Assembly (NCBI GenBank): GCA_017410365.1
Contig: JAFQQY010000020.1
Span: forward strand, 1 to 64,000
Length of the DNA: 64,000 bases
From: Prevotella sp.
Lineage (GTDB): Bacteria > Bacteroidota > Bacteroidia > Bacteroidales > Bacteroidaceae
Reading direction: 5' to 3'
Shown: positions 23,391 to 58,721 of the stretch, piece by piece
How the letters are laid out: every line of letters begins with the position of its first letter
Position numbering within the stretch: the first letter of the stretch is position 1
The notes under the pieces: model-generated
Told to the model about the DNA's origin: nothing
Databases searched by the model: none
The model's input: the letters and a program-made list of their open reading frames with translations, nothing else
Translations under genes and position numbers: made by a program

Positions 23391-23404
23391 CCCTCAATCC
23401 TTCT

Positions 23405-33408: not shown

Positions 33409-33440
33409 TTTTCTTTTTGTTTTGTTTATAGAATAGGAAG

Positions 33441-41402: not shown

Positions 41403-42182
41403 CTATAGCAAAAAAACAGACTCTGGTCCCATATTGAAAAGCAGGTCAAGAATACTTAGGTTAGGTTGGAAACCGTGCTTGCGTTCATACACCTGATAGT
41501 AGCGGCGAGGAACAAAGTCTGCATCGTCTGCCGGATGCTTAGGATTGATGGCGGAACGGAAGTCGATTGGATTGGATGAGAGATGAGGGATGAGGGATGA
41601 GGGATTGGTTGCCATGCTATCGTCTGCACTCCTGCACTCCTGCACTCCTGCACTCCCAATTTTGGATGAGAGATGAGGGATGAGAGATGAGGGATTACTT
41701 GTTAAGCTCCCTCTCCAAGGAGAGGGCGGGGGGAGAGGCCTAACTCCTTCACTCCTAAAATACTCCTCTGTCTCCCTAATATTCGGCTGTATGTCTATCA
41801 GCTCGCACACCTTATGGCATATCTCCATGTTGAAATCATAGAGGAAATCGTACTGACGTTCATAGAACGGACGGAAATCGTCTTGATAATAATCGAAGAA
41901 CGGCGACTCGTTGTAGGCACTCATCAAAGCAAACCAGTGCTGATGGCGCCAATTGCCGTGGTTGCTTATACGAATATCTTTTATCAGATTGCTCGAAGAC
42001 CGCTCTACCGGCACCGTAAGCGTCTGCAGGCCGTTGGTTGTTGCTATCACACAACGATTGCGATAGGTTTGCTTCTGGAATGTCTCCTGACGCTCCATTA
42101 ACACCTCTTCGCTGCGATATAGTTTCTGATACCACTGAACAGGTCCGCAATATGTTGTGGAAAGCAATGTCTTCATAGTCAT
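41403..42182 (-). CDS. WbqC-family protein carrying an in-frame repeat insertion
   Basis: The 259-residue product begins with the WbqC core (TTYCGPVQWYQKLYRSE...RNRCVIATTNGLQTLTVPVE...QHWFALMSAYNESPFFDYY), a family tied to glycan synthesis. The core ends near residue 145 and resumes near 205 (IDFRSAINPKHP...YYQVYERKHGFQPNLSILDLLFNMGPES). Residues about 146-204 are encoded by repeats (41571-41747), giving a duplicated NPSSLIPHLSS peptide (163-173 and 193-203). The frame is kept throughout, so the protein may be functional with a disordered loop. The start codon directly follows the stop of the upstream lepB-like gene (TAG|ATG). Confidence 0.85.
   Translation of the reverse strand: MTMKTLLSTTYCGPVQWYQKLYRSEEVLMERQETFQKQTYRNRCVIATTNGLQTLTVPVERSSSNLIKDIRISNHGNWRHQHWFALMSAYNESPFFDYYQDDFRPFYERQYDFLYDFNMEICHKVCELIDIQPNIRETEEYFRSEGVRPLPPPSPWRGSLTSNPSSLIPHLSSKIGSAGVQECRSADDSMATNPSSLIPHLSSNPIDFRSAINPKHPADDADFVPRRYYQVYERKHGFQPNLSILDLLFNMGPESVFLL
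41571..41747. repeat. Composite repeat block inside the wbqC-like gene
   Basis: From left to right: period-7 GGATGAG array (41574-41608), period-8 CTGCACTC x4 (41624-41655; AGGAGTGC on the coding strand), a second period-7 GGATGAG/AGATGAG array (41664-41698), and a G-rich hairpin CCCTCTCC/GGAGAGGG (41709-41726) with a GGGGGGAGAGG tail. Each module has relatives elsewhere in the window. Confidence 0.9.
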
Positions 42183-42725
42183 CTATTTCAAAAGAAACAG
42201 CCTATCCTTATCATAACCCTTATAAAAAGGCAGACTGTCGTTATGGTTATAAAGCACCATGAACACACGGCCTATGATATGGCTCTCACCTACGTAGCCA
42301 AACAGATTGCTGTCGATAGTATCATTTGGGTTTAAATCTTCAAGCCAGTAGTAATTCTCATTCGCACAACAGAACAACCCTGGAACAACATACTTGGCTC
42401 CTTTATAAGTGATGGTATCGCCAGGAATATGCTTGCACCTAAAGACATACATCCCTTTCATGGATTTATGGGGGTCCTCAACAGCTATAATATCACCACG
42501 TTTAACCTCGCTCTTCAGTAGGCGCCCATAGCGGAACAGTCCTTCTTCGCTGCCTGTGCGAAGTCCATAACTCCAACGGTTCACCAGTATACGGTCGCCC
42601 TTCATAAATTCCGGCTGTAGTCCTCGACCTTCAAGGACATACATTGAATAAACCAAGCCCTTGAACAGAAACAATATTGCTGCTGCCACAATAAAGGGAG
42701 CCAGAACCTTAAGAGCCTTTCGCAT
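42183..42725 (-). CDS. Signal peptidase I-like protein lacking the catalytic dyad
   Basis: The 180-residue protein has the S26 fold order: N-terminal membrane helix (LAPFIVAAAILFLFKGLVYSMYV), box B equivalent EGRGLQPEFMKGDRILVNR, box D equivalent FRCKHIPGDTI and box E-like YVGESHIIGRVF. In the canonical P-S-x-S-M-x-P motif the nucleophile position is Gly35, and the general-base Lys position (six before the Pro of PGD) is Phe95, while the following Arg96 is kept. It therefore appears inactive. It lies 5 bp downstream of the intact lepB and may regulate or assist it. Confidence 0.75.
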   Translation of the reverse strand: MRKALKVLAPFIVAAAILFLFKGLVYSMYVLEGRGLQPEFMKGDRILVNRWSYGLRTGSEEGLFRYGRLLKSEVKRGDIIAVEDPHKSMKGMYVFRCKHIPGDTITYKGAKYVVPGLFCCANENYYWLEDLNPNDTIDSNLFGYVGESHIIGRVFMVLYNHNDSLPFYKGYDKDRLFLLK

Positions 42726-42730
42726 AGGGA

Positions 42731-44155
42731 TTATTTTATATTGTCTACAAAACTGAACAGGCGACTCCAGCGAATGCCAGCAAATCCGCCACGGTCAGGG
42801 TCGCTAGACCACCAGATGAAGATCGGCTTGCCAACGATATGGTCTTCAGGCACAAAGCCCCAGTAGCGTGAGTCGGCAGAATTGTGACGGTTGTCGCCCA
42901 TCATCCAATAGTAGTCCATCTTGAAGGTATAGCTCTTTGCCTCCTTGCCATTGATGATTATCTTGCCATCCTTCACCTTAAGGTCATTGCCTTCGTACAC
43001 CTTGATAGGACGTTCGTAAATGGCGATATTGTCGAGAGTAAGGTCGATGGATTCGCCCTTCTTCGGAATCCACACCGGTCCGTAGTTGTCTCGTGTCCAG
43101 TGCATATTGCCGTTGAGCGGATATATCTCTTTGTCGTCTGCGGCTGTGTTCAGTCTGATGCTTTCAACGATATCGCTGCGCTTTTCCAGTTCTTCCTTAA
43201 TCTTTTTGGTCATCGGCATGTATCCATTTACATTCAGGCTGGCAAGTTCCTCCATGGTAATGCCCAGTTCTTCCATCATCTCTTCTGGTATTCTCTGCTT
43301 CAGCTTGACATAGTAAGTATACTGAACATTGTCGGGTTCCTTGTTTTCCTTACCATCGAGATAGATTATGTGGTCTTTAATCTGCAAGGTTTGCCCTGGA
43401 AGACCAACACAACGCTTTACGTAGTTTTCGCGACGATCGACAGGACGGGTAATCACCTCACCATATTCGGCTTGGTTGGCCCAAATCTTATTGCGTCCTG
43501 CATTATAAATAATGTTGAAAAAATCCTGACGCTGTTCATAAGAGAGAGAATCTGGATTTGGACGCTGAGGATAAATCTGATAGCCGATGCCATAGCACAT
43601 CTGATAGTAGTCGAATGCCTGATACTGCATAGAAGAACAAAGGGTATCGCCGGCGGGATAGTTGAACACTACGATATCATTCAACTGGATATCGCCCAAT
43701 CCCTTGGCACGACGGTACTCCCACTGTGGCCATTCTATATAAGACTTACACTCTATTACTGGCAACGTATGCTGGGTAAGCGGCATGGTGAGCGGTGTCT
43801 GTGGAATGCGCGGACCGTAACTCATCTTAGAAACAAAGAGATAGTCGCCAGTGAGCAATGACTTCTCGAGCGAGCTAGAAGGAATTACATAGTTCTGGAA
43901 GAAAAAGAGGTTGATGAAATATACAGCAACCAAAGCGAACACAATGGCATCAACCCACGACATTATGAAGCGAAGCGGATTCTCACGCTCTTTCCACCAT
44001 CCCCAATTTATCTTCTTGGATATGTAGGCATCATAGATAAATGGTACTACAATAAGGCCAAGCCAACTCTCCAGCCAATAGCAGAAAAGCAGCCACGCTA
44101 TAAGCACTAAAATGAATTTTATCCACTGTATCGTTTTATTTTCTTGTTTCTTCAT
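42731..44155 (-). CDS. lepB: Signal peptidase I
   Basis: This 474-residue membrane peptidase removes signal peptides in the periplasm. Two or three N-terminal membrane helices are followed by the serine box VIPSSSLEKSLLTGDYLFV (Ser95) and the lysine box NYVKRCVGLPG (Lys247), then the late boxes GDNRHNSADSRYWGFVPEDHI. The spacing between Ser and Lys boxes is much longer than in E. coli because of a Tyr-rich insertion (about 115-240), as usual in Bacteroidales. Order dapB-lepB-lepB2-wbqC suggests one operon. Confidence 0.95.
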   Translation of the reverse strand: MKKQENKTIQWIKFILVLIAWLLFCYWLESWLGLIVVPFIYDAYISKKINWGWWKERENPLRFIMSWVDAIVFALVAVYFINLFFFQNYVIPSSSLEKSLLTGDYLFVSKMSYGPRIPQTPLTMPLTQHTLPVIECKSYIEWPQWEYRRAKGLGDIQLNDIVVFNYPAGDTLCSSMQYQAFDYYQMCYGIGYQIYPQRPNPDSLSYEQRQDFFNIIYNAGRNKIWANQAEYGEVITRPVDRRENYVKRCVGLPGQTLQIKDHIIYLDGKENKEPDNVQYTYYVKLKQRIPEEMMEELGITMEELASLNVNGYMPMTKKIKEELEKRSDIVESIRLNTAADDKEIYPLNGNMHWTRDNYGPVWIPKKGESIDLTLDNIAIYERPIKVYEGNDLKVKDGKIIINGKEAKSYTFKMDYYWMMGDNRHNSADSRYWGFVPEDHIVGKPIFIWWSSDPDRGGFAGIRWSRLFSFVDNIK

Positions 44156-44178
44156 TTTTTATTTTTTAGTTATTTGGA

Positions 44179-44226
44179 GGTTTTAGGAAGCCATAGGGTT
44201 AACTAAGAGTTCCTAGGATTTCTAGT
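44179..44226. repeat. Period-10 CTAGG-type array between dapB and lepB
   Basis: About five degenerate 10-bp units (GGTTTTAGGA, AGCCATAGGG, TTAACTAAGA, GTTCCTAGGA, TTTCTAG). It fits between the dapB stop (44230) and the lepB start (44155). Confidence 0.6.
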
Positions 44227-44229
44227 TTT

Positions 44230-44985
44230 TCAAAACTTAAACATATCAGATATTGTCAGCAGTCCGTTGTGCTCTGCCGTATATTCTGCTGCCAGCACAG
44301 CTCCAAGAGCAAAGCCCTGGCGCGAATGTGCATCGTGGGTGATTGTTATTGAATCGGCTTCAGAGTCATATTTAATAGTATGGATGCCTGGTACTTCGCC
44401 ACGACGGATGCTGTCGATGCGCAGACTGCCTGCCTCAACGTCCTTAGAACCATCTATTGTTCTGTCAGGATTCTGCACCGTACCCACTGCCCATTTGTCT
44501 AAGCGGTCGATATTCTCAATCACTTCTTCTGCCAATGTGATGGCTGTACCGCTCGGGTGGTCCAATTTGTGTACGTGGTGCACTTCTTCCATCTCAACGT
44601 CATACTGCTGGAATCCGTTCATAATCTTAGCCAAATAACGGTTTACGGCAGAGAAAATGGCAACACCAATAGAGAAGTTTGATGCCCAAAACAAGGTATT
44701 ACCTTCTTCATTGCACATACGGCGCACGTCATCGCCATGCTCTTTCATCCATCCTGTAGAACCAGAAACCACCTTTACGCCCTTGGCAAATGCCTTCAGG
44801 TAGTTACCATATGCCGCCTGCGGAGCTGTAAACTCAATGGCCACATCGGCAGAAGCAAAAGCCTCGCTGTCGAAGTCCTGCTGGTTGTCTACATCAATAA
44901 TACTCACGATTTCATGCCCACGGCTAATGGCTATCTGCTCTATCATCTTGCCCATCTTGCCGTAGCCTATTAATGCTATCTTCAT
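44230..44985 (-). CDS. dapB: 4-hydroxy-tetrahydrodipicolinate reductase
   Basis: The 251-residue enzyme of lysine/diaminopimelate synthesis shows the nucleotide-binding motif LIGYGKMGKMIE and the signature EEVHHVHKLDHPSGTA with catalytic His and Lys. CAAAGTTA at 45009-45016 (minus strand TAACTTTG) is its likely promoter. It heads the run dapB-lepB-lepB2-wbqC. Confidence 0.95.
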   Translation of the reverse strand: MKIALIGYGKMGKMIEQIAISRGHEIVSIIDVDNQQDFDSEAFASADVAIEFTAPQAAYGNYLKAFAKGVKVVSGSTGWMKEHGDDVRRMCNEEGNTLFWASNFSIGVAIFSAVNRYLAKIMNGFQQYDVEMEEVHHVHKLDHPSGTAITLAEEVIENIDRLDKWAVGTVQNPDRTIDGSKDVEAGSLRIDSIRRGEVPGIHTIKYDSEADSITITHDAHSRQGFALGAVLAAEYTAEHNGLLTISDMFKF

Positions 44986-45091
44986 TTCTAATTCGAATTA
45001 AAACGGGACAAAGTTAATGAATTTTGCTCACTTAATCCCCTTTCTTTAAAGAAATTATCAAAAAACTATCGCTATAATTATTGCATTTTCT

Positions 45092-46423
45092 TTATTGCAT
45101 CATATATTTCATTATGCTGCCGCTAATCTGTCGCAATGATATTTCGCAAAGCTTGGTATTGTATTCTGCCACAAGTATTCGCTCTTCTGCATCGAGCAAA
45201 CTCTGTTGTGCCTCGCGCATCTCAATACCAGAGAGATCGCCAAGCATATAACGCTCGTGGGCTATATAGTGGTTTTCTTCTGCCGTGACAAGGTTCTGTC
45301 GTTCAAGTGCCAGCAGGCGCAGGTTGTTCTTATAGGCCTGCCACAGGTCGGCAAGGTCGGCACGCAACGACTGCTCCAGTTGCAGGCGAGCCATGTCGGC
45401 GTTATCAATATTGATACGAGCGTTGCGGCGCTGACTGCTTCGTTTGCCGTCAAACAGGGTCATGCCCATCTTCACTCCGAAGGTGGCACCCCAGTTGTCG
45501 CGGCTCTTTGTTGCTCCCTCGCTGAAGTTATCGTGTGAATAACTGTAACCGCCGTTCAACTTTATGTACGGGAAGTCGCGACTCATCGTTGCCTTATAGT
45601 CAAGTTCCGCCAGACGGATGTTCTGCGATGCATTCAAGAGCGATGCGTTTGTACGCATTGTGGCATTGAGAAGGGTGTCGAACACCAGTTTGTCGTCAAC
45701 GTTGATAGAGGTATCCGGCACGCTGATGGCTGTGGTCATATCTTTGACAGCCATCAGTTCATAGAGGCGGATGCGCGAAGAGGCGAGCAGTTCGTGCTGC
45801 TTCAGACTCTGTGCCGAGTCGGCATTGAAGTCAACCTGTGCCTGCTGGAGGTCGAGGCGCGACGCACTGCCTATGGTGTAACGTTCAAGCACTATGCGCA
45901 GACGCTCTTTCGAGAGTTTTACGGCATTGTGCAGATTACGCATACGGATGCGTTGCTGAATGAAATTGTAGTATTCCGATGTCAGTTCTGCCACATAGTC
46001 CTCTATGGCCAGTCGGGTGCGTGTCTGTCCCTGACGACGCAGTTCCTGCAACTTACTGTAGTTAGCCTGAATCTTGAATCCGTCGAAGATGGTCCAGTCG
46101 AGATTGATGCCGGCAGAATAGCCGTGGTCGAAGGAGTTGCGGTTCTTTGTCACCGTTCCGTCGGTACGCGACTTGGTGTCGGTGTTCATTGACGAACCGT
46201 CATAGCCGGCAGTTGCACTGAGTGTAGGCAGATAGCCGGCATTAGCCAGATTGGCATTGTTGTCGGCCATGCGCTCCTCGTTTCTTACGATGCGCAGGTC
46301 GTAGTTGTTCTTCAGACCCGTCTCTATGAACTTCGGCAGCGACCCTATCATCGTTTCTTGTGCCCATGCATCGGCAAATGGAGCCATGAACAGGGCCAAT
46401 AAGCATATTCTAATATATTTCAT
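45092..46423 (-). CDS. TolC-family outer-membrane efflux protein
   Basis: The 443-residue protein has a signal peptide (LLALFMAPFADAWA) and two repeats of the outer-membrane efflux protein domain with long coiled helices (IRMRNLHNAVKLSKERLRIVLERYTIGSASRLDLQQAQVD; ERYMLGDLSGIEMREAQQSLLDAEERIL). It forms the outer-membrane channel for the RND pump encoded 11 bp upstream. Confidence 0.93.
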   Translation of the reverse strand: MKYIRICLLALFMAPFADAWAQETMIGSLPKFIETGLKNNYDLRIVRNEERMADNNANLANAGYLPTLSATAGYDGSSMNTDTKSRTDGTVTKNRNSFDHGYSAGINLDWTIFDGFKIQANYSKLQELRRQGQTRTRLAIEDYVAELTSEYYNFIQQRIRMRNLHNAVKLSKERLRIVLERYTIGSASRLDLQQAQVDFNADSAQSLKQHELLASSRIRLYELMAVKDMTTAISVPDTSINVDDKLVFDTLLNATMRTNASLLNASQNIRLAELDYKATMSRDFPYIKLNGGYSYSHDNFSEGATKSRDNWGATFGVKMGMTLFDGKRSSQRRNARINIDNADMARLQLEQSLRADLADLWQAYKNNLRLLALERQNLVTAEENHYIAHERYMLGDLSGIEMREAQQSLLDAEERILVAEYNTKLCEISLRQISGSIMKYMMQ

Positions 46424-46434
46424 CTTTACGCTAT

Positions 46435-49400
46435 TTATTCTTTATGGGAATTACTTGCACCATCTTTCTTCGATGGGACTGAAGCTGTTCCTATATTAGT
46501 TGACACATAAGAGTAGATGGCTGGCACGATGAACATGGTGAGCAATGTAGAGATAAGCATACCGCCCACCACTGCCGTACCCATAGCAATACGACCGTTA
46601 CAGCCCTCGCCGGTGGCGAACATCAGCGGCATGAGTCCGAGGATGGTCGAAACACTGGTCATGAGAATAGGGCGCAAACGCTGTATTGACGCCTCGCGGA
46701 TGGCTGTCATCTTGTCTTCGCCTGCCTTCTGGCGCTGATTGGCAAACTCAACGATAAGAATACCGTTCTTCGCCACCAGTCCGATGAGCATGATGATACC
46801 AATCTGACTGTATATGTTCATTGTTATTCCGCCCACAAGCATGAATATCAGTGCTCCGCAGATGGCGAGAGGCACGGTGAGCATGATGACAAACGGGTCT
46901 TTGAAACTCTCGAACTGGGCTGCAAGAATAAGGTAGATGAGCAGCAGAGCGAGGGCAAAGGCGAATATCAGACTTGACGAACTTTCACGAAACTCCTTCG
47001 AATCGCCGGCAAGTGCAGTACGGAAGGTATCGTCGAGCACTTCCTTGGCTATCTTGTCCATTTCATCGAGACCCTCGCCAATGGTCTTGCCGTCAGCCAA
47101 ACCTGCCGAGATTGTGGCAGACACGAATCGGTTGTAGCGGTAGAGCTTTGGCGGAGCGATGCTCTCAACCAGGTCTACCAGGTTTTCCATCTGTACCATC
47201 TTACCGTCGGCAGAACGCATGTAGATGGCCTTGAGGTTGGTTGGGTCGTTGCGCTGCTGGCGGTTAATCTCACCCACAATCTCATACTGCTTTCCGTTCA
47301 TATACAGATAACCCATACGCTGTCCGCTGAGTCCGTACTGCAAAGTCTGTGCGATATCCTTCGTACTCACACCCATAAGGTTGGCTTTCTCACGGTTGAC
47401 GCTCAGTCTTACCTCCGGTTTTGAGAACTTCAAATCGACGTCGGCCATCTGGAACGTAGGATTGTCATAAACCTTTGCCATGAATGCCGGCAGCACCTTC
47501 TGCAGTTTCTCGATGTTTGTGGCCTGCAGTACGTATTGCACTGGCATGGCACCACGCCTGCCGCCGAAGGTACTCTGCTGCTGAACGAAGGCACGGGCAT
47601 CGGTCTTAGTGCGCACGGCTTTCGACAGTTTTTCTGCCACCTCCATCTGAGTATAGTCGCGCTCGGCAAGGTCTTTCAGCGTAATCTGAATATTTCCCGA
47701 ACCTTCCGACACGCGTGCAGTGATAAACGCTGCATCAGGCATCAGCGAGTCGGCCAGTCGGTTGATGTCTTCGGTGTAATCGCGCATATATTCGTAGGTC
47801 ACACCCTCCGGTCCCATGGTGCGGATGGTTATGCTCGAGCGGTCCTCAAGCGGTGCCATCTCCGCCGGCACGCTAACCCACATCCAGACACAGGCTACAA
47901 GTGCCACCACCATGATGGCAATGGCCGTGAAACGCTTGCGCAGGAAGGCATCGAGCATGCGAGAATATACATTATTGAGTCCTGTGAAGAACGGTTCTGT
48001 CTTGCGGTAGAACCAGTTTTGCTCCTTGCGCCTTACAAGCAGTTTCGTGGCTAGCATCGGCGTGAAGGTAAGTGCGGCGAATGAGGAGATGATTACCGAA
48101 CCGGCAACCACGAAACTGAACTCTCGGAAGAGTCGGCCGGTTGTTCCCTCCATGAACACGATGGGCAGGAACACCGCCACCAGCGTGATGGTGGTAGAGA
48201 TGACGGCAAAGAATATCTCCTTGGCTCCCTCGATACCCGCCTCAAAGGGTTTCATGCCTCGCTCTATTCGTATATAGATGTTCTCGGTCATAACGATGGC
48301 ATCATCGACCACCAGTCCGACGGAGAGCACGATGGCAAGCATCGAAAGCACGTTGATGGAGAAGCCGCACAGATACATCACGAAGAATGCACCGATGAGC
48401 GACACAGGAATAACGATACAGGGGATGAGCGTAACGCGCCAGTCGCGCAGGAAGAGGAAGATAATGATGATTACGAGCAGGAAGGCTTCGTAAACGGTTG
48501 TCTCCACCTCACTGATTGAGGCACGGATGAAACGTGTGTTGTCGAAACCGTAGTCGAAGTGTACATCCTCTGGCAGGTCTTTCTTCATCATCTCCATACG
48601 CTCATGCACGGCGTCGGCAATATCTATATGGTTGGCTCCCGGCTGCGGAACGACAACGACACCCACCATAGGCACACCGTTCATCTTCATATAGCTCTTG
48701 ATATCGCGTGGCGACAGTTCGGCACGACCGATGTCGCTGAACCTCACCATGCGACTGCCGTCTTCCTTGATAACGAGGTTGTTGAACTCCTCCGTGGTGT
48801 GCATTTGTCCCATGGTGCGGATACTGAGTTCGGTGGTATTGCCCTCGATGGTTCCCGATGGCAGCTCCACATTCTCACGGTCGAGGGCATTCTTCACGTC
48901 CATAGGCGTAATGCCATAACCAGACATCTTCACAGGGTCGAGCCACAGGCGCATGCAATATCTTTTCTCACCCCATATCATAACGCTCGAAACGTCTTGA
49001 ATGGTTTGCAACTGCTCCTTCACCGTAAGGTCGGCTATCTCACTGAGTTCCAACAGCGAGCGCTTGTCGCTCTGTATGGCCACCATAAGTATCGGACGCG
49101 CATCGGCATCGGCCTTCGACACTGTTGGCGGGTCGCAGTCGCGCGGCAACCACCGTTGTGCTCTCGACACCTTGTCGCGCACGTCGTTGGCAGCCGTTTC
49201 CAAATCTACCGAGAGTTCAAACTCAACCGTTATACGACTGTTTCCTTGCTGACTGACACTGGTCAGGGAGCGGATGCCAGGAATACCGTTGATGTTCTGC
49301 TCAAGGGGTTCGGTTATCTGATTCTCTATTACGTCGGCGTTTGCACCCGGATACGAGCACGACACAGATATTATAGGGTTATCCACCGACGGATATTCTC

Positions 49401-49503: not shown

Positions 49504-49835
49504 GTTTGTTGTTTTTTAGTTGACGAGTAAACGAGTTGACAAGTTGACGAGTTGACGAGTTGACGAGTTGACAAGTTATTTGCATCTGAAGCTATTGTCC
49601 TTTGACTTCCTTTGATTCCTTAATTCAGTCTCACCCAATATTAGGAGTGTAGGAGTGAAGGAGTGGCGCTTCGCTTAGGAGTGTAGACAATACTCAGGGA
49701 GTTCAGGAATTCAGGAGTTCAGACGTATGCTTGGTATGCATGCGCTCCATTTTCATCTGATTTCCCTTCCTTTCGGGAGGGGATAGGGGTAGGTTCCTAT
49801 TTCCCCCTCCCCTCGGTGAGGTTAGGAGGGGACTT
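49504..49835. repeat. Composite repeat block inside the RND operon
   Basis: The 332-bp gap between adaptor and permease is almost wholly repeats: period-8 GTTGACGA x7 (49519-49574), AGGAGTGN units at 49643-49666 and 49677-49684 followed by AGACAATA, a period-8 CAGGAATT/CAGGAGTT run ending CAGACG (49695-49725), and two G-rich hairpins (49764-49790 and 49803-49832). No reading frame is supported. Confidence 0.85.
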
Positions 49836-51103: not shown

Positions 51104-51138
51104 TTTGTTGGTTATGAGGAAAATAGTTTTTACATTTG
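51104..51138 (+). promoter_or_regulatory. Promoter of the exported nitroreductase gene
   Basis: TTTG (51104-51107) and TACATTTG (51131-51138) are separated by 23 bp, slightly longer than usual. The start codon is at 51193. Confidence 0.45.
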
Positions 51139-51192
51139 TCCTCGTAAATATTAAACAACACTATTTTAAAACAAATCAAAAATCGTTATCCT

Positions 51193-51831
51193 ATGAAGAA
51201 AATCGTATTGACATTAGCTGCAATGCTGATTGCATTGACTGGTGCAATGGCACAGAATGCTCCTGAGGTAATCAAACTGAACAAGCCTAACTATGACGAA
51301 GGCATGACTCTCTTGAATGCACTGAAGAACCGTAAGTCGTCAAAGGGATTCACAGAGAAAGAAATCTCACTGCAAGACATCTCCAACATGATGTGGGCGG
51401 CACTTGGAGTAAACCGTCCCGACGGAAAGCGCACCGCTCCTACCGGTTCTAACAGACAGGAAATAGAACTGTATGCCTTCTTCAAGCATGGTGCCTACTA
51501 CTACAATTACAAGAACCACACTCTCGAACTCGTTGCCAAGGGTGACCACCGTGCCATAACCGGACGTGCCGATGCTCAGAAGGCTTATCTCAACCTGCTC
51601 TTCATCGCCGATACCGACAAGACCGGTCCTGGTCACAGGCCTGGCGATGCCAACACCGTTTCGTATGTCAACGTGGGTTATGTTTCGCAGAATGTGTATC
51701 TCTATTGCGCAAGTGCCGGCATTGGCAGCAGGGCCCGCGGCGGATGGAACCAGCAGAAAGTGGTCGAGACTCTGAAGTTGAAGGACTCGATGATTGTCGT
51801 ACTGGGACAGACTGTGGGATATTGCGAGTAA
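51193..51831 (+). CDS. Exported SagB/ThcOx-type nitroreductase-family protein
   Basis: The 212-residue product has a clear signal peptide (MKKIVLTLAAMLIALTGAMAQN), then a nitroreductase-fold domain: NRKSSKGFTEKEISLQDISNMMWAALGVNRPDGKRTAPTGSNRQ and the late IGSRARGGWNQQKVVETLKLKDSMIVVLGQTVGY. These match SagB-like FMN oxidoreductases. Export is unusual because such enzymes need FMN and reductant, usually in the cytoplasm. Substrate unknown. It stands alone. Confidence 0.82.
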   Translation: MKKIVLTLAAMLIALTGAMAQNAPEVIKLNKPNYDEGMTLLNALKNRKSSKGFTEKEISLQDISNMMWAALGVNRPDGKRTAPTGSNRQEIELYAFFKHGAYYYNYKNHTLELVAKGDHRAITGRADAQKAYLNLLFIADTDKTGPGHRPGDANTVSYVNVGYVSQNVYLYCASAGIGSRARGGWNQQKVVETLKLKDSMIVVLGQTVGYCE

Positions 51832-51939
51832 TTTGTCGTTTGACTAAATTTGGCTACTAAAAGAAATACCCGAATGGCGCTATGAATAGGCGCCATTTTT
51901 ATTTTATTCCAAAAATCAGTGGTTTATCGTTTTTTTTAG

Positions 51940-51947
51940 TATATTTG
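51940..51947 (+). promoter_or_regulatory. -7 element of the DUF2851 gene
   Basis: TATATTTG matches TAnnTTTG exactly, 26 bp before the start codon at 51974. A -33 element is not clear. Confidence 0.5.
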
Positions 51948-51973
51948 CAAATTGATAATAACCACAACAGACT

Positions 51974-53272
51974 ATGGAACAACTGCTGCACTACTGCTGG
52001 AAACACAGACTGATGGGTACAGGCAACTTGCTGACCATCGACGGCAAGACGGTGGAGGTGATTGATACTGGACTGCACAATAGCAATGCCGGACCTGATT
52101 TCTTCAACGCCAAGGTGAAGATTGACGGCACGCTATGGGTGGGCAATGTTGAGATTCACGACCGTGCCAGTCATTGGTTTGCCCACGGTCACGACAAGGA
52201 CAGTGCCTACAACAATGTGGTGATGCACGTTGTGGGCGAGGCTGATGCCATTGTCACTACTGCCGACGGCAAGACTATCCCTCAAGTGGTGGTCAGCGTT
52301 CCTCAGCATGTTGCCGACAATTATCAGGAACTGCTGCGCACCGACTCTTACCCGCCTTGCTATAAGATTGTACCGGAACTGTCGGCACTGACCATACACT
52401 CATGGATGAGTGCGCTGCAGACGGAAAGACTGGAACAAAAGACCATTGCCATCGAGGAAAGGGTAAAGCAGTGCGGCGGCGCATGGGAGGAAGCCTATTT
52501 CATGACTCTTGCCCGCAACTACGGCTTCGGCATCAACGGCGATGCCTTTGAGCAATGGGCCAGATGCATTCCTCTTTCTGCTGTGGGCAAGCACCGCGAC
52601 GACCTATTTCAGATAGAAGCGATATTCCTTGGACAGGCTGGTCTGCTCGACATCGATGAAATCGCCGAGAAATATCGCAGCAAGGTGATGGCGGATGAAT
52701 ACTTCACCCGCCTCGTCAACGAGTACAGGTATCTGGCTCATAAGTTCTCACTTACGCCTATGGACAGCAAGATGTGGCGCTTTCTGAGGTTGCGCCCGCA
52801 GAACTTTCCTCTTATACGCATATCACAGCTTGCCACTCTCTATCACGAGAGACGCACCAACCTGAGCATGCTTGCTGAATGTCAGTCGTTGAACGACCTT
52901 CGCCAGATGCTCACAACGCATGTCTCACCATACTGGGAAACCCACTATTCATTCGGTTCAGAGAGCAGCAAGAGCAAGAAGAATCTTTCTGCTGCATCCA
53001 TCGACCTGCTGATAATAAATACTGCCATACCTATGCTCTTCGCTTATGGCAGGCACCTGCACAAAGAGGATTTGTGCGACAGGGCTTTCGACATCCTCGA
53101 CCAACTGAAGGCCGAGAATAATAACATCGTGCGCATGTGGCAGGAGTGCGGAATGGAGGTAAAGACCGCCGGCGACAGCCAGGCACTGATACAGCTGAAG
53201 AAGGAATACTGCGACCGACGCGAATGCCTAAGATGTCGCATCGGGTATGAGTATCTTAAAGGGGATAGATGA
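51974..53272 (+). CDS. DUF2851 protein
   Basis: This 432-residue cytoplasmic protein begins with the DUF2851 signature (EQLLHYCWKHRLM, then VIDTGLHNSNAGPDFFNAKVKIDGTLWVGNVEIHDRASHW), a nuclease-like arrangement of Asp, Glu and Lys residues. The C-terminal half is helical and ends in a Cys-rich CDRRECLRCRIGYEYLK. It is conserved across Bacteroidota; function unknown, though the GNVEIH segment hints at a PD-(D/E)xK-like fold (inference). Confidence 0.85.
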   Translation: MEQLLHYCWKHRLMGTGNLLTIDGKTVEVIDTGLHNSNAGPDFFNAKVKIDGTLWVGNVEIHDRASHWFAHGHDKDSAYNNVVMHVVGEADAIVTTADGKTIPQVVVSVPQHVADNYQELLRTDSYPPCYKIVPELSALTIHSWMSALQTERLEQKTIAIEERVKQCGGAWEEAYFMTLARNYGFGINGDAFEQWARCIPLSAVGKHRDDLFQIEAIFLGQAGLLDIDEIAEKYRSKVMADEYFTRLVNEYRYLAHKFSLTPMDSKMWRFLRLRPQNFPLIRISQLATLYHERRTNLSMLAECQSLNDLRQMLTTHVSPYWETHYSFGSESSKSKKNLSAASIDLLIINTAIPMLFAYGRHLHKEDLCDRAFDILDQLKAENNNIVRMWQECGMEVKTAGDSQALIQLKKEYCDRRECLRCRIGYEYLKGDR

Positions 53273-53290
53273 TCTAGCTTAATAGATTTC

Positions 53291-53357
53291 CTAGAGAATC
53301 CTAGGCCTTCCTAGAGCCTCCTAGGTCTTCCTAGAGCTTCCTAGAACTTCCTAAAAA
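53291..53357. repeat. Period-10 CCTAGG array ending at the thioesterase start
   Basis: About 6.6 units in exact 10-bp register (CTAGAGAATC, CTAGGCCTTC, CTAGAGCCTC, CTAGGTCTTC, CTAGAGCTTC, CTAGAACTTC). It stops 5 bp before the start codon at 53363, covering the usual ribosome-binding region. Confidence 0.9.
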
Positions 53358-53362
53358 AGATT

Positions 53363-53782
53363 ATGAAACAAAAATACATATACGAAACAAAAATGATGGT
53401 TCGCGACTATGAGTGCGACATCGAGGGCATTGTGAACAATGCCAACTACCTTCACTACACAGAGCATACGCGCCATCTGTTCTTGAAGGCTTGCGGACTG
53501 AGTTTCGCAGAGATGCACCGCAAGGGCGTTGATGCTGTAGTGGCTCGAATGAACCTGCAATTCAAGACACCGCTCACTTGCGACGATGAGTTTATATCAC
53601 GGCTCGGATTGCATAAAGAGGGCATACGCTATGTCTTCAATCAGGACATCTACCGAGCCAGCGACGAGAAACTCTGCTTCCGCGGTGTAATAGAGATAGT
53701 GTGCTTGGTAAACGGCAAACTGGCTGACAGCGAAGACTATAACAAGGCCTTTGAGAGTTATCTGCAAGGACTAAACGCCTAA
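53363..53782 (+). CDS. Acyl-CoA thioesterase, 4-hydroxybenzoyl-CoA/YbgC type
   Basis: The 139-residue hotdog-fold protein carries the active-site segment VRDYECDIEGIVNNANYLHYTEHTRH with Asp in the position typical of YbgC-type thioesterases. It hydrolyses short or medium acyl-CoA or acyl-ACP. It lies in a same-strand run DUF2851-thioesterase-dprA-dusB whose junctions hold repeat arrays. Confidence 0.88.
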   Translation: MKQKYIYETKMMVRDYECDIEGIVNNANYLHYTEHTRHLFLKACGLSFAEMHRKGVDAVVARMNLQFKTPLTCDDEFISRLGLHKEGIRYVFNQDIYRASDEKLCFRGVIEIVCLVNGKLADSEDYNKAFESYLQGLNA

Positions 53783-53786
53783 GTCA

Positions 53787-53864
53787 ATCCTTCAATTCTT
53801 CAATCCTTCATCTAGGAAAGCCAGGATTTCCTATACACTCCCAAAATCTCCTATCCCTCCTAAA
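53787..53864. repeat. Period-8 and period-10 repeats ending at the dprA start codon
   Basis: TCCTTCAA-type units (TCCTTCAA, TTCTTCAA, TCCTTCAT; 53788-53811) are followed by about five degenerate period-10 CCTA units (53811-53864). The last base touches the ATG at 53865. Confidence 0.7.
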
Positions 53865-54986
53865 ATGCAAGAACTACTATACACCATGGCGCTGACGCGA
53901 ATAAGCAACTTCAATTTCGCAACAGCTTTGGCTCTGTACCAGCAACTGGGCAGTGCCACCGCCATTTATGAGCATCGCAATAATATCGGTGATGTCATCA
54001 GCGACTGCACGCCTCGCCTCATCGCGGCACTGAAAGACTGGGACGAACCGATGAAACGGGCAGAAATGGAGATGGAGTTCATCAAAAAGCACAACATAAA
54101 GGCACTCACTCCTGCCTCGCCCGACTACCCGCAAAGACTGACCGAGTGCTGCGATGCGCCGCTGGTGGTATATTTCAAGGGAAATGCCGACCTGAACAAC
54201 GCTAAAGTGCTCAATATCATCGGTACACGCAACTGCACCACTTACGGGCAAGACCTCATAAGAAGGTTCTGCAAAGAGCTAAAAGAGATGTGTCCTAACG
54301 TGCTTATTGTCAGCGGACTGGCTTACGGTGTGGATATTCATGCCCACCGTCAGGCACTGGAAAACAACTTCGAGACGATTGGTGTTCTTGCTCACGGACT
54401 CGATACCATCTATCCTTCTGCCCATAGAGATACGGCAAAGACAATGATAAACAAGGGCGGACTGCTCACTGAGTTCATGACAATGACAAAGGCCGACAAG
54501 GTGAACTTCGTCCGTCGAAACCGTATCGTTGCAGGAATGTCTGACGCCACCATACTTGTGGAGTCGGCAAACAAGGGTGGCGGACTGATTACCTGCAGCA
54601 TAGCACGCAGTTACAACCGTGACGTGTTTGCCTTTCCAGGAGCTGTGGGTGCGAAATATTCGGAGGGATGCAACCGACTGATTCGTGACAACGAGGCGGC
54701 ACTCATCACATCGGCTGAGGATTTTGTAAAGTCGATGGACTGGCAAGATGATGCGATATTGCAAAAGGCTAAGCAACAGGGCATCGAACGGAGCCTTTTC
54801 CCCGATTTCACCGATGAAGAGCAGGCAATAGTCGGCCTGCTCAACAAGAGAAACGACCTGCAGGCCAATATCATCGCCGTAGAAATAGGACAACCAATAA
54901 ATAAGGTTACAGCCCTACTCTTCCAACTGGAAATGAAGGGTGTTGTAAAACCGCTGGCTGGAGGTATGTATCATTTGATTAAATAG
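53865..54986 (+). CDS. dprA: DNA-processing protein A
   Basis: This 373-residue protein has the DprA/Smf Rossmann domain: VLNIIGTRNCTTYGQDLIRRF, VSGLAYGVDIHAHRQAL, GLDTIYPSAHRDTA, GGLLTEFM and FVRRNRIVAGMSDATILVES. N-terminal helix-hairpin-helix and C-terminal winged-helix regions complete it. It loads RecA on incoming single-stranded DNA in natural transformation. The start is immediately after the repeat array, so initiation cannot rely on a standard ribosome-binding site. Confidence 0.95.
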   Translation: MQELLYTMALTRISNFNFATALALYQQLGSATAIYEHRNNIGDVISDCTPRLIAALKDWDEPMKRAEMEMEFIKKHNIKALTPASPDYPQRLTECCDAPLVVYFKGNADLNNAKVLNIIGTRNCTTYGQDLIRRFCKELKEMCPNVLIVSGLAYGVDIHAHRQALENNFETIGVLAHGLDTIYPSAHRDTAKTMINKGGLLTEFMTMTKADKVNFVRRNRIVAGMSDATILVESANKGGGLITCSIARSYNRDVFAFPGAVGAKYSEGCNRLIRDNEAALITSAEDFVKSMDWQDDAILQKAKQQGIERSLFPDFTDEEQAIVGLLNKRNDLQANIIAVEIGQPINKVTALLFQLEMKGVVKPLAGGMYHLIK

Positions 54987-54990
54987 GGTA

Positions 54991-55018
54991 ACCTCCCCCA
55001 ACCCCTCCGAGGGAGGGG
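54991..55018. repeat. G-rich REP-like hairpin, reversed
   Basis: CCCCTCC (55002-55008) pairs with GGAGGGG (55012-55018). On the minus strand the tail is TTGGGGGAGGT, the same order as the copy at 23405. It lies 4 bp after the dprA stop. Confidence 0.7.
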
Positions 55019-55053
55019 AGAAGGGCAACTCATCAACATCAGAAACAAATAAC

Positions 55054-55105
55054 TAGTCAACTTGTCAACTCGTTTACTCGTCAACTAAAGTACCAACTCG
55101 TCAAC
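55054..55105. repeat. Period-8 TCGTCAAC array upstream of dusB
   Basis: Units TAGTCAAC, TTGTCAAC, TCGTTTAC, TCGTCAAC, then a spacer and TCGTCAAC. The reverse complement of 55056-55089 is identical to 49516-49549 apart from the last bases, including the odd unit GTAAACGA, so the two arrays share ancestry. It ends 8 bp before the dusB start codon. Confidence 0.9.
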
Positions 55106-55113
55106 TAAAAAAT

Positions 55114-56193
55114 ATGAAAATAGGAAACATAGAATTCGGCCCCAACCCTCTCTTCCTCGCACCGATGGAAGATGTTACAGACATTGGCTTCCGCCTGCTC
55201 TGCAAGCGTTTCGGAGCATCGATGGTCTATACCGAGTTTGTGAGCGCCGAAGCACTTATCCGCGACGTACAATCTACGGTGCGTAAGCTAACCATCAGCG
55301 ATGAGGAACGTCCCGTGGGCATACAGATTTACGGCAGAGACGTGGATGCCATGGTGGAGGCGGCAAAGATTGTGGAACAGGCAGGTCCTGACCTCATCGA
55401 CCTGAACTTCGGTTGTCCGGTGAAGAAAGTGGCTGGCAAGGGTGCCGGCGCTGGAATGCTGCAAAACATACCACGCATGTTGGAGATAACAAGCAAGGTA
55501 GTGGATGCAGTGAAGTTGCCCGTGACGGTAAAGACACGACTGGGCTGGGACAGTAACAACCTCATAATAACAGAACTGGCTGAGCAGTTGCAGGACTGTG
55601 GCATCAAGGCACTGACCATACATGGACGCACCAGGGCACAGATGTACACGGGTGATGCCGACTGGACCCTCATTGGCGAGATAAAGCACAACCCGCGCAT
55701 CCATATCCCCATCATCGGCAACGGTGACATCAAGACGGCAGAGGATGCAAAACGGGCTTTCGAGACTTACGGCGTGGATGCGGTGATGATTGGACGCGCC
55801 ACGTTCGGACAACCTTGGATATTCAAGGAGATTGGGGAGGCATTGGGTCCAAGGAGTGAAGGAGTGAAGGAGTGTAGGAGTGAAGACGATTGCTCACAAC
55901 CTCACTCAACCAACTTATCAACTCGTCAACTTATCAACTCGTCAACTGTAAACTCCTGCCTCTCACTTGACGACAAAATCGACATTCTCCTTGAGCAACT
56001 GAAGATAAATGTCGATAGAATCGACGAATATCGGGGCATCCTGCACACACGTCGCCATCTGGCGGCATCGCCGATTTTCAAGGGAATACCCGATTTCCGA
56101 CAGACACGCATCGCCATGCTTAGGGCAGAGACGATGGAGGAACTGACAAATATCATAGAAGAGATACGCATCCGACTGAAAAAAGAACAATGA
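55114..56193 (+). CDS. dusB: tRNA dihydrouridine synthase with in-frame repeat insertion
   Basis: The 359-residue TIM-barrel flavoprotein shows LAPMEDVTDIGFR, the catalytic-cysteine region DLNFGCPVKKVAGKGAGAG (Cys101), VTVKTRLGWD and IIGNGDIKTAEDA, followed by VMIGRATFGQPWIF. It reduces uridines in the tRNA D-loop. Residues about 245-282 (55846-55959) are encoded by repeats (SEGVKECRSEDD, then STNLSTRQLINSST) between the barrel and the helical tRNA-binding domain (LDDKIDILLEQL). The frame is preserved and all core motifs remain, so activity is plausible. The stop overlaps the next start (ATGA). Confidence 0.9.
   Translation: MKIGNIEFGPNPLFLAPMEDVTDIGFRLLCKRFGASMVYTEFVSAEALIRDVQSTVRKLTISDEERPVGIQIYGRDVDAMVEAAKIVEQAGPDLIDLNFGCPVKKVAGKGAGAGMLQNIPRMLEITSKVVDAVKLPVTVKTRLGWDSNNLIITELAEQLQDCGIKALTIHGRTRAQMYTGDADWTLIGEIKHNPRIHIPIIGNGDIKTAEDAKRAFETYGVDAVMIGRATFGQPWIFKEIGEALGPRSEGVKECRSEDDCSQPHSTNLSTRQLINSSTVNSCLSLDDKIDILLEQLKINVDRIDEYRGILHTRRHLAASPIFKGIPDFRQTRIAMLRAETMEELTNIIEEIRIRLKKEQ
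55846..55959. repeat. Repeat block inside dusB
   Basis: AGGAGTGA, AGGAGTGA, AGGAGTGT, AGGAGTGA (55852-55883) then AGACGATTGC; after a short link, TTATCAAC, TCGTCAAC, TTATCAAC, TCGTCAAC (55915-55946). Both modules match intergenic copies at 49.5-49.7 kb and 55.05 kb, and the first also matches the wbqC-like gene. Confidence 0.9.
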
Positions 56194-58721
56194 AACGACT
56201 GACAACATACATCCTGCTGGTACTTGCCTACTGCCAAATAGGTAAGGCACAGCCAATATGCAACGTGACAGAGTACGGCGAGAACGACGGACTGGCACAG
56301 TGGCACGTCACGCAGATAGTGCAAGACAAGCAAGGAATGATATGGATGTCAACGTGGAACGGACTCAACCGCTTCGACGGACAGAGTTTCCACTGTTTCA
56401 AGTCGCTACCAGGCGACGGTTGCAACATGTACACCGACCGTATAAGAAACATCTGGATTGACAGCAACGACAACATTCAGTGCATGGTTGACTACGGTAA
56501 CTACATGTTCGACACAAAGACTTACAGATTCAGCGAGTCGGACAGCACAAGGAAAATGCCCAACAAGAGCATTTCACTGAAAAACAAAATATATATAGAA
56601 TACACCGACAACTACGGCACGAAATGGCTTTTGCACAACAACGGCAAACTGGAATATATCGACCGCAATAGTGGAATGACGGTGGAATATCCACTGAAAA
56701 GTCTTACCAACGACTACAAATTCTGCTTCAGCGACAAACAGGGAAACCTTTGGCTATATGGCAATTACAATATCTACAAACTGAGTTTCAGTATCAACCC
56801 CACCGAAACCTTGCCACAAATGGGAGCAGGAGAGATAAGGAGTCTGATGCTTGACAACAAGAAACGCTATTGGGTTTCAAACAGAGACGACAAGACAGTG
56901 TGCCTCTTTGCTGCCGACAACAGTCTGATAGGCTATCTCGACCGCAACGGACGAGTAAGCAAGTCATACGTTTCATTCGGCAGTCCTGTATATTGCATCA
57001 CGCAGACCACCAACGGCACAATATGGCTGGGGAGCAAACCCGACGGACTGTTCCGACTGAGCGAGACCGCCAACGGCACGTTCAGCATCAGACAGATAGA
57101 AGGACTGAACAACAATAATGTTTACGACATAAAGGAAGACCGCCTCGGACGCCTGTGGCTGGCAACGCTTGGCGGTGGCATCAACTGCCTGCCCAACCCT
57201 CATGACGATGCGCCGAAGGTGGTAAATAGCGGCAACGGGTTCGCCAACTACCCCGAAAAGGATTTCCTAAAAACACGTAATATCCTGATTGTCAACGACA
57301 GCACTATTCTTGCTTCAAGCACCGACGGACTGATTGTTGTTGAGATTCAGGGAAAGACCGATTTGAAAAAAGCGCGATTCCATCGACATACGCGTGATGC
57401 CAACAGGGCAAGCAGTTTGAGTTGCAACGCCACCATGTTCGTGAGTAGAGACAACGGCGGGCGCATATTCGTTTGCACCGAGAGTGGCGGACTGAACATG
57501 ATTACGTCAAGCAATCTCTTTGCTGACACCCTGTCGTTCAAGCACTTCAATACCAATAGCGGACTGCCCACCGACGTGATGCTCTCGGCCACACCTTTAG
57601 ACAGCATGCTGCTCGTTGTGTGCAGCAACCGCATACTGCTTCTTAATCCCGACGACTCGTCTCACAGTGCCTACGACAGCCGTTTCTTCCAGCAACGCTG
57701 CCGTTTCTCCGATGCCCTGCCGTTGCAACTGCCAGACGGCAGATGGCTGCTTGCCACTCACGACGGAGCGTTCACCATCGACCAGCGTATGATAAGGAAG
57801 AGCGACTTCATTCCGCCTATCGCACTTACAAGCATTTCCATAGAGAACAGGCGCACGGAGATGGCTGTAAACAGCTTAGACACACTGCTTCTGAACAGTG
57901 ACGAGCGCAACGCAACAATCAACTTCGCCGCCCTCGACTATAGTTATGGCAGCAGCATCAGCTATGCCTTCCGACTGAACGAGGCTGACGACGAAAAGAC
58001 CGGATGGAACAACATCGGACACGACCGCTCTGTAACACTGCTCAACCTCGTGCCCGGCACATACCATTTGGAGATACGCTCGACAAATGGCGACGGCGTG
58101 TGGACAGACAACAACCGGCTGCTAACCATCATCGTCAAACCAAAATGGCACGAGACCATGTTTGCCCGCATCCTGTTCCTGCTCGTCTCCTTGGCAGTTA
58201 TCGCACTCATCGTATATACCATAATATATATAAAGCGCATAAACAAGCGTCAGGACGAAACGCTCCAGGCTTATCTGGCTCTGCTTTCAAGTCATGAGGA
58301 TATGAGGGTTTCTGGTCATGAGGTCGCTACACTTCAAAGTTATAAGGACGAAGGTTCTAATGACCTCATAACCTCACGACCTCATAACCTCGCAACCTCT
58401 CCCGAAGACGATGCCTTCATGCGTCGCGTTGTGGCGTTTGTAGAAGAGAATATCGGCAACGCCGACGTCAGCATAAGCGACATGGCAGATGCCGCAGCCG
58501 TCAGTCGAAGCGGTTTGCAGCGTAAGATGAAGCACCTGATGGGCATCACCCCACTCGACTTCCTCCGTGAGGCACGCATCAAACGTGCCTGTCAGTTGTT
58601 GGAGCAGTCGTCAAAACCCGTCAGCGACATCGCCTACGAATGCGGTTTCAGCGACCCGAAATACTTCAGTCGCAGTTTCAAATCATCAACGGGCAAGTCG
58701 CCGAGCGATTACCGAAAATAA
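56190..58721 (+). CDS. SusR-like membrane sensor with cytoplasmic AraC domain
   Basis: The 843-residue protein has a signal/anchor, a periplasmic two-component-regulator propeller (QDKQGMIWMSTWNGLNRFDG, TTNGTIWLGSKPDGLFRL, DRLGRLWLATLGGGINCL), a Y_Y_Y-like domain (YRLNEADDEKTGWNNIGH region) and one membrane helix at about 657-682. Unlike hybrid two-component systems it lacks histidine kinase and receiver domains and passes directly to an AraC helix-turn-helix (about 740-843, ISDMADAAAVSRSGLQRKMKHL). This is the plan of SusR. Residues about 700-738 are encoded by period-8 repeats. It is coupled to dusB by ATGA and no polysaccharide locus is adjacent, so its targets are unknown. Confidence 0.88.
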   Translation: MKRLTTYILLVLAYCQIGKAQPICNVTEYGENDGLAQWHVTQIVQDKQGMIWMSTWNGLNRFDGQSFHCFKSLPGDGCNMYTDRIRNIWIDSNDNIQCMVDYGNYMFDTKTYRFSESDSTRKMPNKSISLKNKIYIEYTDNYGTKWLLHNNGKLEYIDRNSGMTVEYPLKSLTNDYKFCFSDKQGNLWLYGNYNIYKLSFSINPTETLPQMGAGEIRSLMLDNKKRYWVSNRDDKTVCLFAADNSLIGYLDRNGRVSKSYVSFGSPVYCITQTTNGTIWLGSKPDGLFRLSETANGTFSIRQIEGLNNNNVYDIKEDRLGRLWLATLGGGINCLPNPHDDAPKVVNSGNGFANYPEKDFLKTRNILIVNDSTILASSTDGLIVVEIQGKTDLKKARFHRHTRDANRASSLSCNATMFVSRDNGGRIFVCTESGGLNMITSSNLFADTLSFKHFNTNSGLPTDVMLSATPLDSMLLVVCSNRILLLNPDDSSHSAYDSRFFQQRCRFSDALPLQLPDGRWLLATHDGAFTIDQRMIRKSDFIPPIALTSISIENRRTEMAVNSLDTLLLNSDERNATINFAALDYSYGSSISYAFRLNEADDEKTGWNNIGHDRSVTLLNLVPGTYHLEIRSTNGDGVWTDNNRLLTIIVKPKWHETMFARILFLLVSLAVIALIVYTIIYIKRINKRQDETLQAYLALLSSHEDMRVSGHEVATLQSYKDEGSNDLITSRPHNLATSPEDDAFMRRVVAFVEENIGNADVSISDMADAAAVSRSGLQRKMKHLMGITPLDFLREARIKRACQLLEQSSKPVSDIAYECGFSDPKYFSRSFKSSTGKSPSDYRK
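58288..58404. repeat. Inverted pair of period-8 arrays inside the sensor/AraC gene
   Basis: TCATGAGG, ATATGAGG, GTTTCTGG, TCATGAGG (58292-58323) is followed by ACCTCATA, ACCTCACG, ACCTCATA, ACCTCGCA, ACCTCTCC (58363-58402). The two arrays are reverse complements and could form a hairpin with a loop of about 36 nt. They encode the linker between membrane helix and DNA-binding domain. Confidence 0.9.

Follow-up and report, generated by a model that had tools for sequence, protein, structure and literature searches.

Short repeats of 7-10 bp units fill many gene junctions and also lie in frame inside genes in a 64,000-nucleotide stretch of Prevotella sp. DNA, and the question arises of what these arrays are and how they came to lie there. 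This stretch, called here the window, comprises the initial 64 kb of contig C16, part of a 3.28-Mb draft metagenome-assembled genome (MAG; 55 contigs, 89.4% complete). An original prediction had listed such modules at thirteen places; they are clear at 17.9, 26.2, 33.4, 41.6, 49.5-49.7, 53.3, 53.8, 55.05, 55.9, 58.3 and 61.9 kb, while at 23.3 and 44.2 kb only degenerate CCTAGG decamers are present (Table 1). The observation is thus confirmed and its interpretation partly supported. The explanation favoured here, with confidence a little better than even, is that the arrays are members of a superfamily of tiny palindromic elements, spread across Prevotella, in which each arm consists of a 7-10 bp unit repeated head to tail. 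One branch of it has a transposon structure, which is not visible from the window by itself.

This branch is defined by its CTSAACTTTCGCA ends. The elements carry terminal inverted repeats (TIRs; CTSAACTTTCGCA...TGCGAAACTTGAA), inverted array arms, a short loop core and a nested small hairpin, and are mostly 163-190 bp long (range 136-218, 22 measured). In genome G045 an element of ~170 bp occupies three sampled loci; it has outer repeats CTGAACTTTCGCA / TGCGAAACTTGAA, arms of (AGTTAAAGG)n and the inverse, and a core AAGACGTATGTCTTG...GACTGTTGTCTTAAC, and its right arm contains a nested hairpin, AGCGACCGTAGGGAGCGA. Of 76 candidate places for this element five were scored, and all five match it at 97-100% identity. 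When up to five candidates per genome were scored, matches to the G045 element were found in 80 of 150 genus genomes, that of the window included, and nearly full-length copies with 8- or 9-bp arm units occur in G087, G079, G080, G009 and G130. Both ends were found at 22 of the 27 loci tried, with 0 to 4 mismatches over the two ends summed. Flanking duplications of 7 bp are perfect in 8 of these 22 and reach at least 6/7 in 15, compared with 0.4% and 8.7%, respectively, in a swapped-flank control of 462 pairings. The end CTCAACTTTCGCAAGT, with up to 2 mismatches, has 123 matches in G087 (control 1), 88 in G097 (6) and 74 in G009 (4); the window's genome has 2 (1). An inverted partner within 250 bp is found for 11/120 arrays of the window's genome (control 1), 21/69 of ten other genus genomes (0) and 60/235 of named relatives (21).

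A candidate for the mobilizing enzyme is encoded between ends of the same type. In G080 (locus L267) two ends TAACTGAACTTTCGCAAGTG, 20/20 identical and 1.6 kb apart, surround a single frame of 479 codons, and the 8-bp repeat TTAGGTAA flanks the whole insertion sequence; the protein is an IS4-family transposase (NF049925, 374 bits, cut-off 250). Branch-type ends lie on both sides at 5 of 16 homologue loci (L267, L273, L301, L302 and L304, belonging to G080, G066 and three genomes of other genera) and on one side at 5 of 16; three more distant homologues have CTAAAGTTTCCCACC-like ends, and in G077 ends are found on both sides of an interrupted copy. Homologues of the transposase occur in 21/150 genus genomes and in 12/119 genomes of the order. 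The shared ends, the ~7-bp duplications and the IS4-family insertion sequences with matching ends establish, at the level of sequence, that the CTSAACTTTCGCA branch is a miniature inverted-repeat transposable element (MITE) with tandem arms, presumably moved in trans by the IS4-family transposase.

Arrays abound in the window's genome, which was sampled as the window plus 40 stretches picked regardless of arrays (814,162 bases). Window repeats were located by Tandem Repeats Finder, a second repeat finder and a purpose-written scan; the tandem scan covers periods 5-13 at thresholds 11, 12 and 14, with one first-order Markov resample per sequence as shuffle control. Threshold 12 gave 151 arrays and none in the resample, threshold 11 gave 168 and 6. 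Period 7-10 accounts for 145 of the 151 (51 of period 7, 47 of 8, 21 of 9 and 26 of 10), periods 5, 6, 11 and 12 together for just 6. Over the whole genome (GTCAACTY)x3 has 263 matches with up to 2 mismatches and TCCTAGGNNNTCCTAGG, of the TCCTAGGnnn family, 94 with up to one, the reversed patterns giving 0 in both cases. Several unrelated units coexist in this genome: at threshold 14 the consensus is AACTCCT in 12 arrays, AACTCGTC or AACTTGTC jointly in 11, AAGGAGTG in 4 and AACCTCAT in 3, besides decamers of GATAGAAGAA and CCTAGG type. These figures leave it quite improbable that the arrays arose by independent replication slippage at each site, with units alike by chance or composition. Slippage probably does affect arm length, since unit numbers vary between copies of one element; however, the limited periods speak against it, and as sole cause it is contradicted by a unit present 263 times, by the termini and target duplications of one branch and by the distribution of units among species.

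Indeed, this distribution is both wide and species-specific. (GTCAACTY)x3 is found in 42/150 genus genomes, the window's included, with 1 to 276 matches, and three genomes have a single control match. Comparison loci were the dus loci of 80 named relatives, mainly Prevotella and other Prevotellaceae, collected by sequence search with the dus gene of the window (1.458 Mb), 60 stretches of ten other genus genomes, and 287 kb sampled across 19 genomes that belong to the order but not to the genus. Arrays of period 7-10 number 14.7 per 100 kb in the window's genome, 16.1 in the named loci, 5.8 in the ten genus genomes and 1.7 in the other genera. Among 174 arrays at least 400 bp apart, from 51 loci, the unit is shared by 48/321 within-genome pairs and 571/14,730 between-genome pairs, a difference reached by 0 of 1000 label shuffles. 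The units form species 'dialects', and for many copies the claim that they are related, rather than products of independent slippage, is upheld by these dialects and by the shared units and cores. The dialects would also be explained if each species kept its own DNA uptake sequences, or words of a similar sort, through biased transformation; units are indeed shared within genomes, and uptake sequences of Neisseria occur as inverted pairs. However, several unrelated units are found together in one genome, they form tandem arrays instead of single words, and one branch has termini and target duplications; this origin is very improbable.

Two orthologous junctions were inspected for old shared arrays, which the original prediction had named as grounds for rejecting it. 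Of the 80 loci, 38 retain the dprA-dus junction and 10 of these have an array in it; the thioesterase-dprA junction is retained in 41, with an array in 8. Since few intact junctions carry arrays and the units differ, neither is an old conserved feature. The best partial match to dus, among the 344 of 398 genus genomes scored, has 81% identity; a plasmid search with the dus region returned 4 records of 60-80% identity, with nothing bearing on the arrays.

With genes called simply as longest open reading frames, 84 of 105 period-7-10 arrays (threshold 14) are intergenic, in a sample where intergenic bases are 10.0%. They occupy 59/255 co-directional, 17/59 convergent and 8/71 divergent gaps; divergent gaps are avoided (8/71 against 76/314 remaining gaps, Fisher P 0.017). 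The original prediction placed the modules mostly between co-directional genes, which largely reflects most gaps being co-directional. It also had their ends stopping close to start and stop codons: an array end lies within 10 bp of a gene end in 31/99 cases, where random placement in the same gap gives a mean of 22.7 and reaches 31 in 12/1000 simulations, so that the excess exists but is only modest. The purine-rich strand in co-directional gaps is sense in 30 cases and antisense in 30. Clustering of intergenic arrays is not significant (30/98 near another; random mean 24.6, maximum 39).

The excess at gene ends and the scarcity in divergent gaps would be expected if the arrays were binding sites kept by selection, recognised between cistrons for example by a regulator of translation or transcription, as has been proposed for TAACTGA repeats; a regulatory role is argued for those of Beggiatoaceae (PMC4679880). 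This reading is nevertheless unlikely: the strands are used equally, units vary between species at the same junction, most compared loci have no array at that place and insertions lie within coding stretches. Strand neutrality, modest gene-end excess and avoidance of divergent gaps fit tolerated insertions better than a regulatory site, and no need was seen for a host function to explain the arrays. A regulatory RNA read in sense was likewise rejected, given the same strand neutrality and an Rfam search of the window which, at gathering scores, gave 0 matches to known structured RNAs. Dispersed short intergenic palindromes, together with a separate family of G-rich hairpins (45 clusters, control 6), could also recall repetitive extragenic palindromic (REP) elements mobilised by a REP-associated tyrosine (RAYT/Y1, TnpA_REP) transposase. 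This possibility has very little to commend it, considering that Y1_Tnp has no match in the window's genome, which is among the richest in octamers (89.4% complete, so that the gene could lie in the missing part) nor in octamer-bearing G012, G026 and G046; this absence from array-bearing genomes argues against RAYT/Y1 as the mover. One or two Y1_Tnp are found in octamer-rich G028, G029 and G086, and the domain is present in 87/150 genomes.

Three copies had been described as read through in frame. For tRNA-dihydrouridine synthase (Dus) and the WbqC-family protein this is corroborated by ortholog alignments, while the 58.3-kb copy is indicated by its open frame, its repeats lying inside 843 codons, 5' of an AraC-type helix-turn-helix (HTH) match. 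In the alignment of 81 Dus proteins (the window's and 80 relatives; 17 read at the DNA level), the insert starts near residue 246, late in the Pfam Dus match (15-265); the corresponding segment has 37 residues in 30/81 and at least 69 in 8/81. Arrays were detected there in 7 of the 17 DNA sequences, with differing units: GGAGTGAA and AACTCGTC in the window, GGTACGAG with an inverted second arm in L012, a 9-bp unit in L015, TCATCCC in L080, GGAACGAG in L070 and CCCATTAAC in L019; L088 also carries an array. The segment of WbqC has 81 residues in the window and 22-25 in 6/20 aligned sequences, and 7/20 have detected arrays, again with differing units. The in-frame copies are thus real, as judged from the arrays in one and the same stretch of Dus and of WbqC, which vary from species to species. 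An array with a period of 7 or 8 is translated in every one of the three frames, therefore only stop-poor units or strands can survive; in the dus array of the window, a variant unit is read where the common one would create a stop. Insertion in frame within unrelated genes, here Dus and WbqC, is also what characterizes Rickettsia palindromic elements, and the likeness drawn to them earlier is in this respect justified.

Two observations concern the same genes. In the Dus gene of another Prevotella (L021 3103-3321), two in-frame G-rich hairpins occupy the segment that elsewhere holds arrays. The translated WbqC insert matches parts of two open frames of its own genome, of 559 codons (C48:30620-31327) and 407 codons (C35:170971-171063), which suggests further array insertions in genes of this genome.

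How far the window's own modules are tied to such elements is a separate matter. One link is a 10-bp-arm element of GGAGATAGAA type, with 51 matches in the window's genome (40 of 109 candidates scored); 13 of the 51 span at least 140 of 231 bases and are long, older copies. A pattern search picked out TTCAACTTTCGCA-like ends in 5 of the 15 distinct copies, some of the ends being decayed but recognisable, and the layout, with a GACATTAG / GTATCGTC core and a nested GCCGCTGAAAGCGGC hairpin, is that of the branch element. A remnant in the window at 15570..15664 gives weak BLAST matches to arms and cores of its own genome (best 1e-11). The modules at 41.6, 49.57, 49.7 and 55.87 kb share a core AGACnATnGC beside a GGAGTnnn-like arm, followed in several of them by a GTCAACTC or CTCATCC array. 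A model of this core, built from twelve places of the genome, has 15 matches in the own-genome sample (10 seed, 5 new) and 0 in reversed sequence. In addition, 39 nt of the dprA-dus array (55051-55089) recur inverted at 49515-49553 with 97% identity. These four modules would be derived, partly nested members of the superfamily.

Several results weigh against extending the element to all arrays. The core model matched nothing in the 80 named loci, nor anything in the 60 stretches sampled from ten genus genomes; as far as tested, the core is therefore a feature of the window's genome. Among five distinct testable 10-bp-arm copies, one has a duplication of at least 6/7 (control 30%), which is no more than the control gives, and a terminus-like site lies within 150 bp of 14/145 own arrays (control 6). 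The TCCTAGGnnn, TTAATGC and CCCATAAGC types are not tied to any ends, and ends together with a duplication were not found for the window's arrays of 8-bp GTCAACTC, 7-bp GGATGAG and 10-bp TCCTAGGnnn units. Both features are present in 5/56 inverted pairs (controls 0, 0 and 1), three of the five being the known G045 loci. Same-unit neighbours at unselected loci are inverted in 36 cases and direct in 24, a small excess (45 against 24 over all loci, where 9 pairs came from loci fetched for the element), and in the window's genome 3 are inverted and 2 direct. The order of units matches from arm to arm in 3/34 pairs, or 3/31 without the preselected L246, L261 and L262. Array load varies among genomes, G024 having no array in 140 kb. 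Finally, the IS4-family transposase was not found in the window's MAG (89.4% complete), and G045, whose genome is a single contig and carries the element, gave no homologue of the enzyme at the threshold applied. A correction of one arm templated by the other in a hairpin was also considered; it is not supported in general, and the striking pair L196 59-300 is among the three that match.

Since most arrays of this genome lack recognisable ends, a MITE origin for them is inferential. It is possible, if unlikely, that besides the IS4-linked branch a copying process places the current 7-10 bp 'words' of a genome at hundreds of end-less sites. End-less arrays do occur in gaps and, across species, in the same protein stretches; genome-specific units and a narrow period range are what such a process would leave if it copied a short template, as a reverse transcriptase or primase might.

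Under the favoured superfamily of palindromic elements, short palindromes would be transposed by an IS4-family enzyme, as the ends and duplications of one branch support. Slippage in the repetitive stem could then alter arm length and period, yielding units such as GGAGTTA, GGAGTTAA, GGAGTTAAA, GGAGATAGAA, GGAGTGAA and perhaps GAGTTGAC, so that each species would drift to its own units. The window modules would be old members, shortened or nested, whose ends are gone. To judge from their location, insertions would persist where harmless: in gaps (less often divergent ones) and, in frame, at points where the protein tolerates them and the strand being read is free of stop codons.

Table 1. Repeat modules of the window and the genes that contain them
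Feature	Position	Context	Components
Remnant resembling the 10-bp-arm element	15570..15664	Between convergent genes	From sequence and scan array 15629-15662; left arm ~15570-15593; core GACGTCTGCTTaaggtaatgtcc 15594-15616; right arm (CTTCTATCTC type) 15617-15664
7-bp array	17916..17944	Adjoins 38-nt stretch 17955-17992	TAATCTT
Degenerate CCTAGG decamer copy, then G-rich hairpin	23337..23421		Hairpin 23400-23421
7-bp array	26233..26263		AATGAAG
10-bp array	33434..33515	Co-directional gap	TCCTAGGnnn
WbqC-family gene (PF08889)	41403..42182	Minus strand	Composite in-frame insert
Composite WbqC insert	41571..41735	In frame in WbqC-family gene	(GATGAGG)n 41575-41605; core CTATCGTCTGC 41617-41627; (CTGCACTC)n 41624-41656; (GATGAGA)n 41665-41695; G-rich hairpin 41709-41731
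Degenerate CCTAGG decamer copy	44174..44222		
Composite module	49518..49820		(AGTTGACG)n 49518-49577; core 49572-49609 (ctattgtcc); 10-bp repeat 49598-49621; (TAGGAGTG)n 49642-49665; (GGAGTTCA)n 49698-49722; core AGACGTATGCTT from 49721; G-rich hairpins 49763-49820
10-bp array	53289..53356	Gap between DUF2851 gene and thioesterase-like gene	TCCTAGGnnn
8-bp array	53784..53866	Gap between thioesterase-like gene and dprA	TCAATCCT and degenerate tail
G-rich hairpin and array	54992..55089	Gap between dprA and dus	Hairpin 54992-55021; (AACTCGTC)n
tRNA-dihydrouridine synthase gene (Dus, PF01207)	55114..56193	Plus strand	In-frame insert
Dus insert	55849..55957	In frame, from ~residue 246	(AAGGAGTG)n; core AGACGATTGCTC; (AACTTATCAACTCGTC)n
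Hybrid regulator gene (propeller, Y_Y_Y, AraC-type HTH)	56190..58721	Plus strand	HTH_18 at residues 765-843
In-frame repeats	58290..58404	Upstream of HTH match	tcatgaggatatgagg... and inverted array GACCTCATAACCTCAC
7-bp array	61882..61910		AACGATG

Other repeats accompany these modules. The G-rich hairpins (CCCCTC..GAGGGG type) are a family of their own, whose clusters number 45 over the 814 kb sampled, against 6 when the pattern is reversed; 16/45 lie within 150 bp of an array, a zone which makes up 21% of intergenic bases. In the window they are found at 23400, 41709, 49763-49820 and 54992, and they are also present in the sampled loci. Outside the 7-10 bp class, arrays with a 22-bp period and palindromic units ACTGACAGT / ACTGTCAGT lie at 5826-5903 and 35206-35283, mutually inverted and 74% identical. 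Two repeats lie in the region 9484-10137, one of 57 bp and one of 98 bp present in 5.5 copies, made of 9-bp words (AACGAATTA and the inverse); the region looks like a tandem-amplified hairpin element and has kin at 24894-24945. A 97-bp dispersed repeat (5608-5704 and 58747-58843, 74% identical) includes CATCCTACATTTT; among words outside the arrays, 12-mers related to the latter are the most frequent in the genome sample, with up to 14 copies. Finally, a 38-nt inverted pair (17955-17992 and 26210-26247, 95%) connects an array end to TACCTTTGCACC. This sequence resembles the Bacteroidetes promoter element TAnnTTTG, and because of this resemblance arrays may sit next to promoters.

No paper on these Prevotella arrays was found in the open-licence PubMed Central literature. 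Dispersed arrays of 7-bp units are known in cyanobacteria as short tandemly repeated repetitive (STRR) sequences. The original prediction knew of no named family of this kind, which overlooks both BrickBuilt (PMC4596501) and the TAACTGA heptamer arrays (PMC4679880). TAACTGA and related heptamer arrays occur in Beggiatoaceae, Cyanobacteria and five Bacteroidetes, with other heptamer arrays nearby; like those of Prevotella they have short units, are intergenic and patchily distributed, and have some copies in genes (PMC4679880). They differ in consisting of one unit, which in the main genome studied usually lies immediately before a start codon, whereas in Prevotella no strand preference was seen and one branch has a transposon structure; the author saw no exchange mechanism by which arrays shared by distant phyla might have spread (PMC4679880). 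Having one array branch as MITE arms with an identifiable IS4-family partner makes array spread testable in Prevotella isolates.

Rickettsia palindromic elements, as described in the accessible text of PMC10969869, are ~150-bp palindromes in frame in unrelated genes, and no tandem-repeat arms are mentioned for them there; the Prevotella copies, likened to them by description, are mostly intergenic and have tandem arms. The Dus and WbqC stretches offer a natural insertion experiment, in which mobile DNA turns into protein sequence while the frame is kept open. The IS4-family insertion sequences (NF049925) have the same TIRs as the branch element, and the Prevotella elements are too short to encode a transposase. 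Also among the closest known systems is BrickBuilt of Porphyromonas gingivalis, likewise of the Bacteroidales, a MITE holding a tandem repeat between a leader and a tail with inverted ends; a second element of that species, 464/PgRS, has a 41-nt repeat and similar terminal repeats (PMC4596501). BrickBuilt has a 23-bp unit and 19 copies and is always intergenic (PMC4596501). Conversely, the Prevotella elements have units of 7-10 bp that change from species to species, two inverted arms and a genus-wide distribution; they are also found in frame within genes, and IS4-family sequences with matching ends have been identified.

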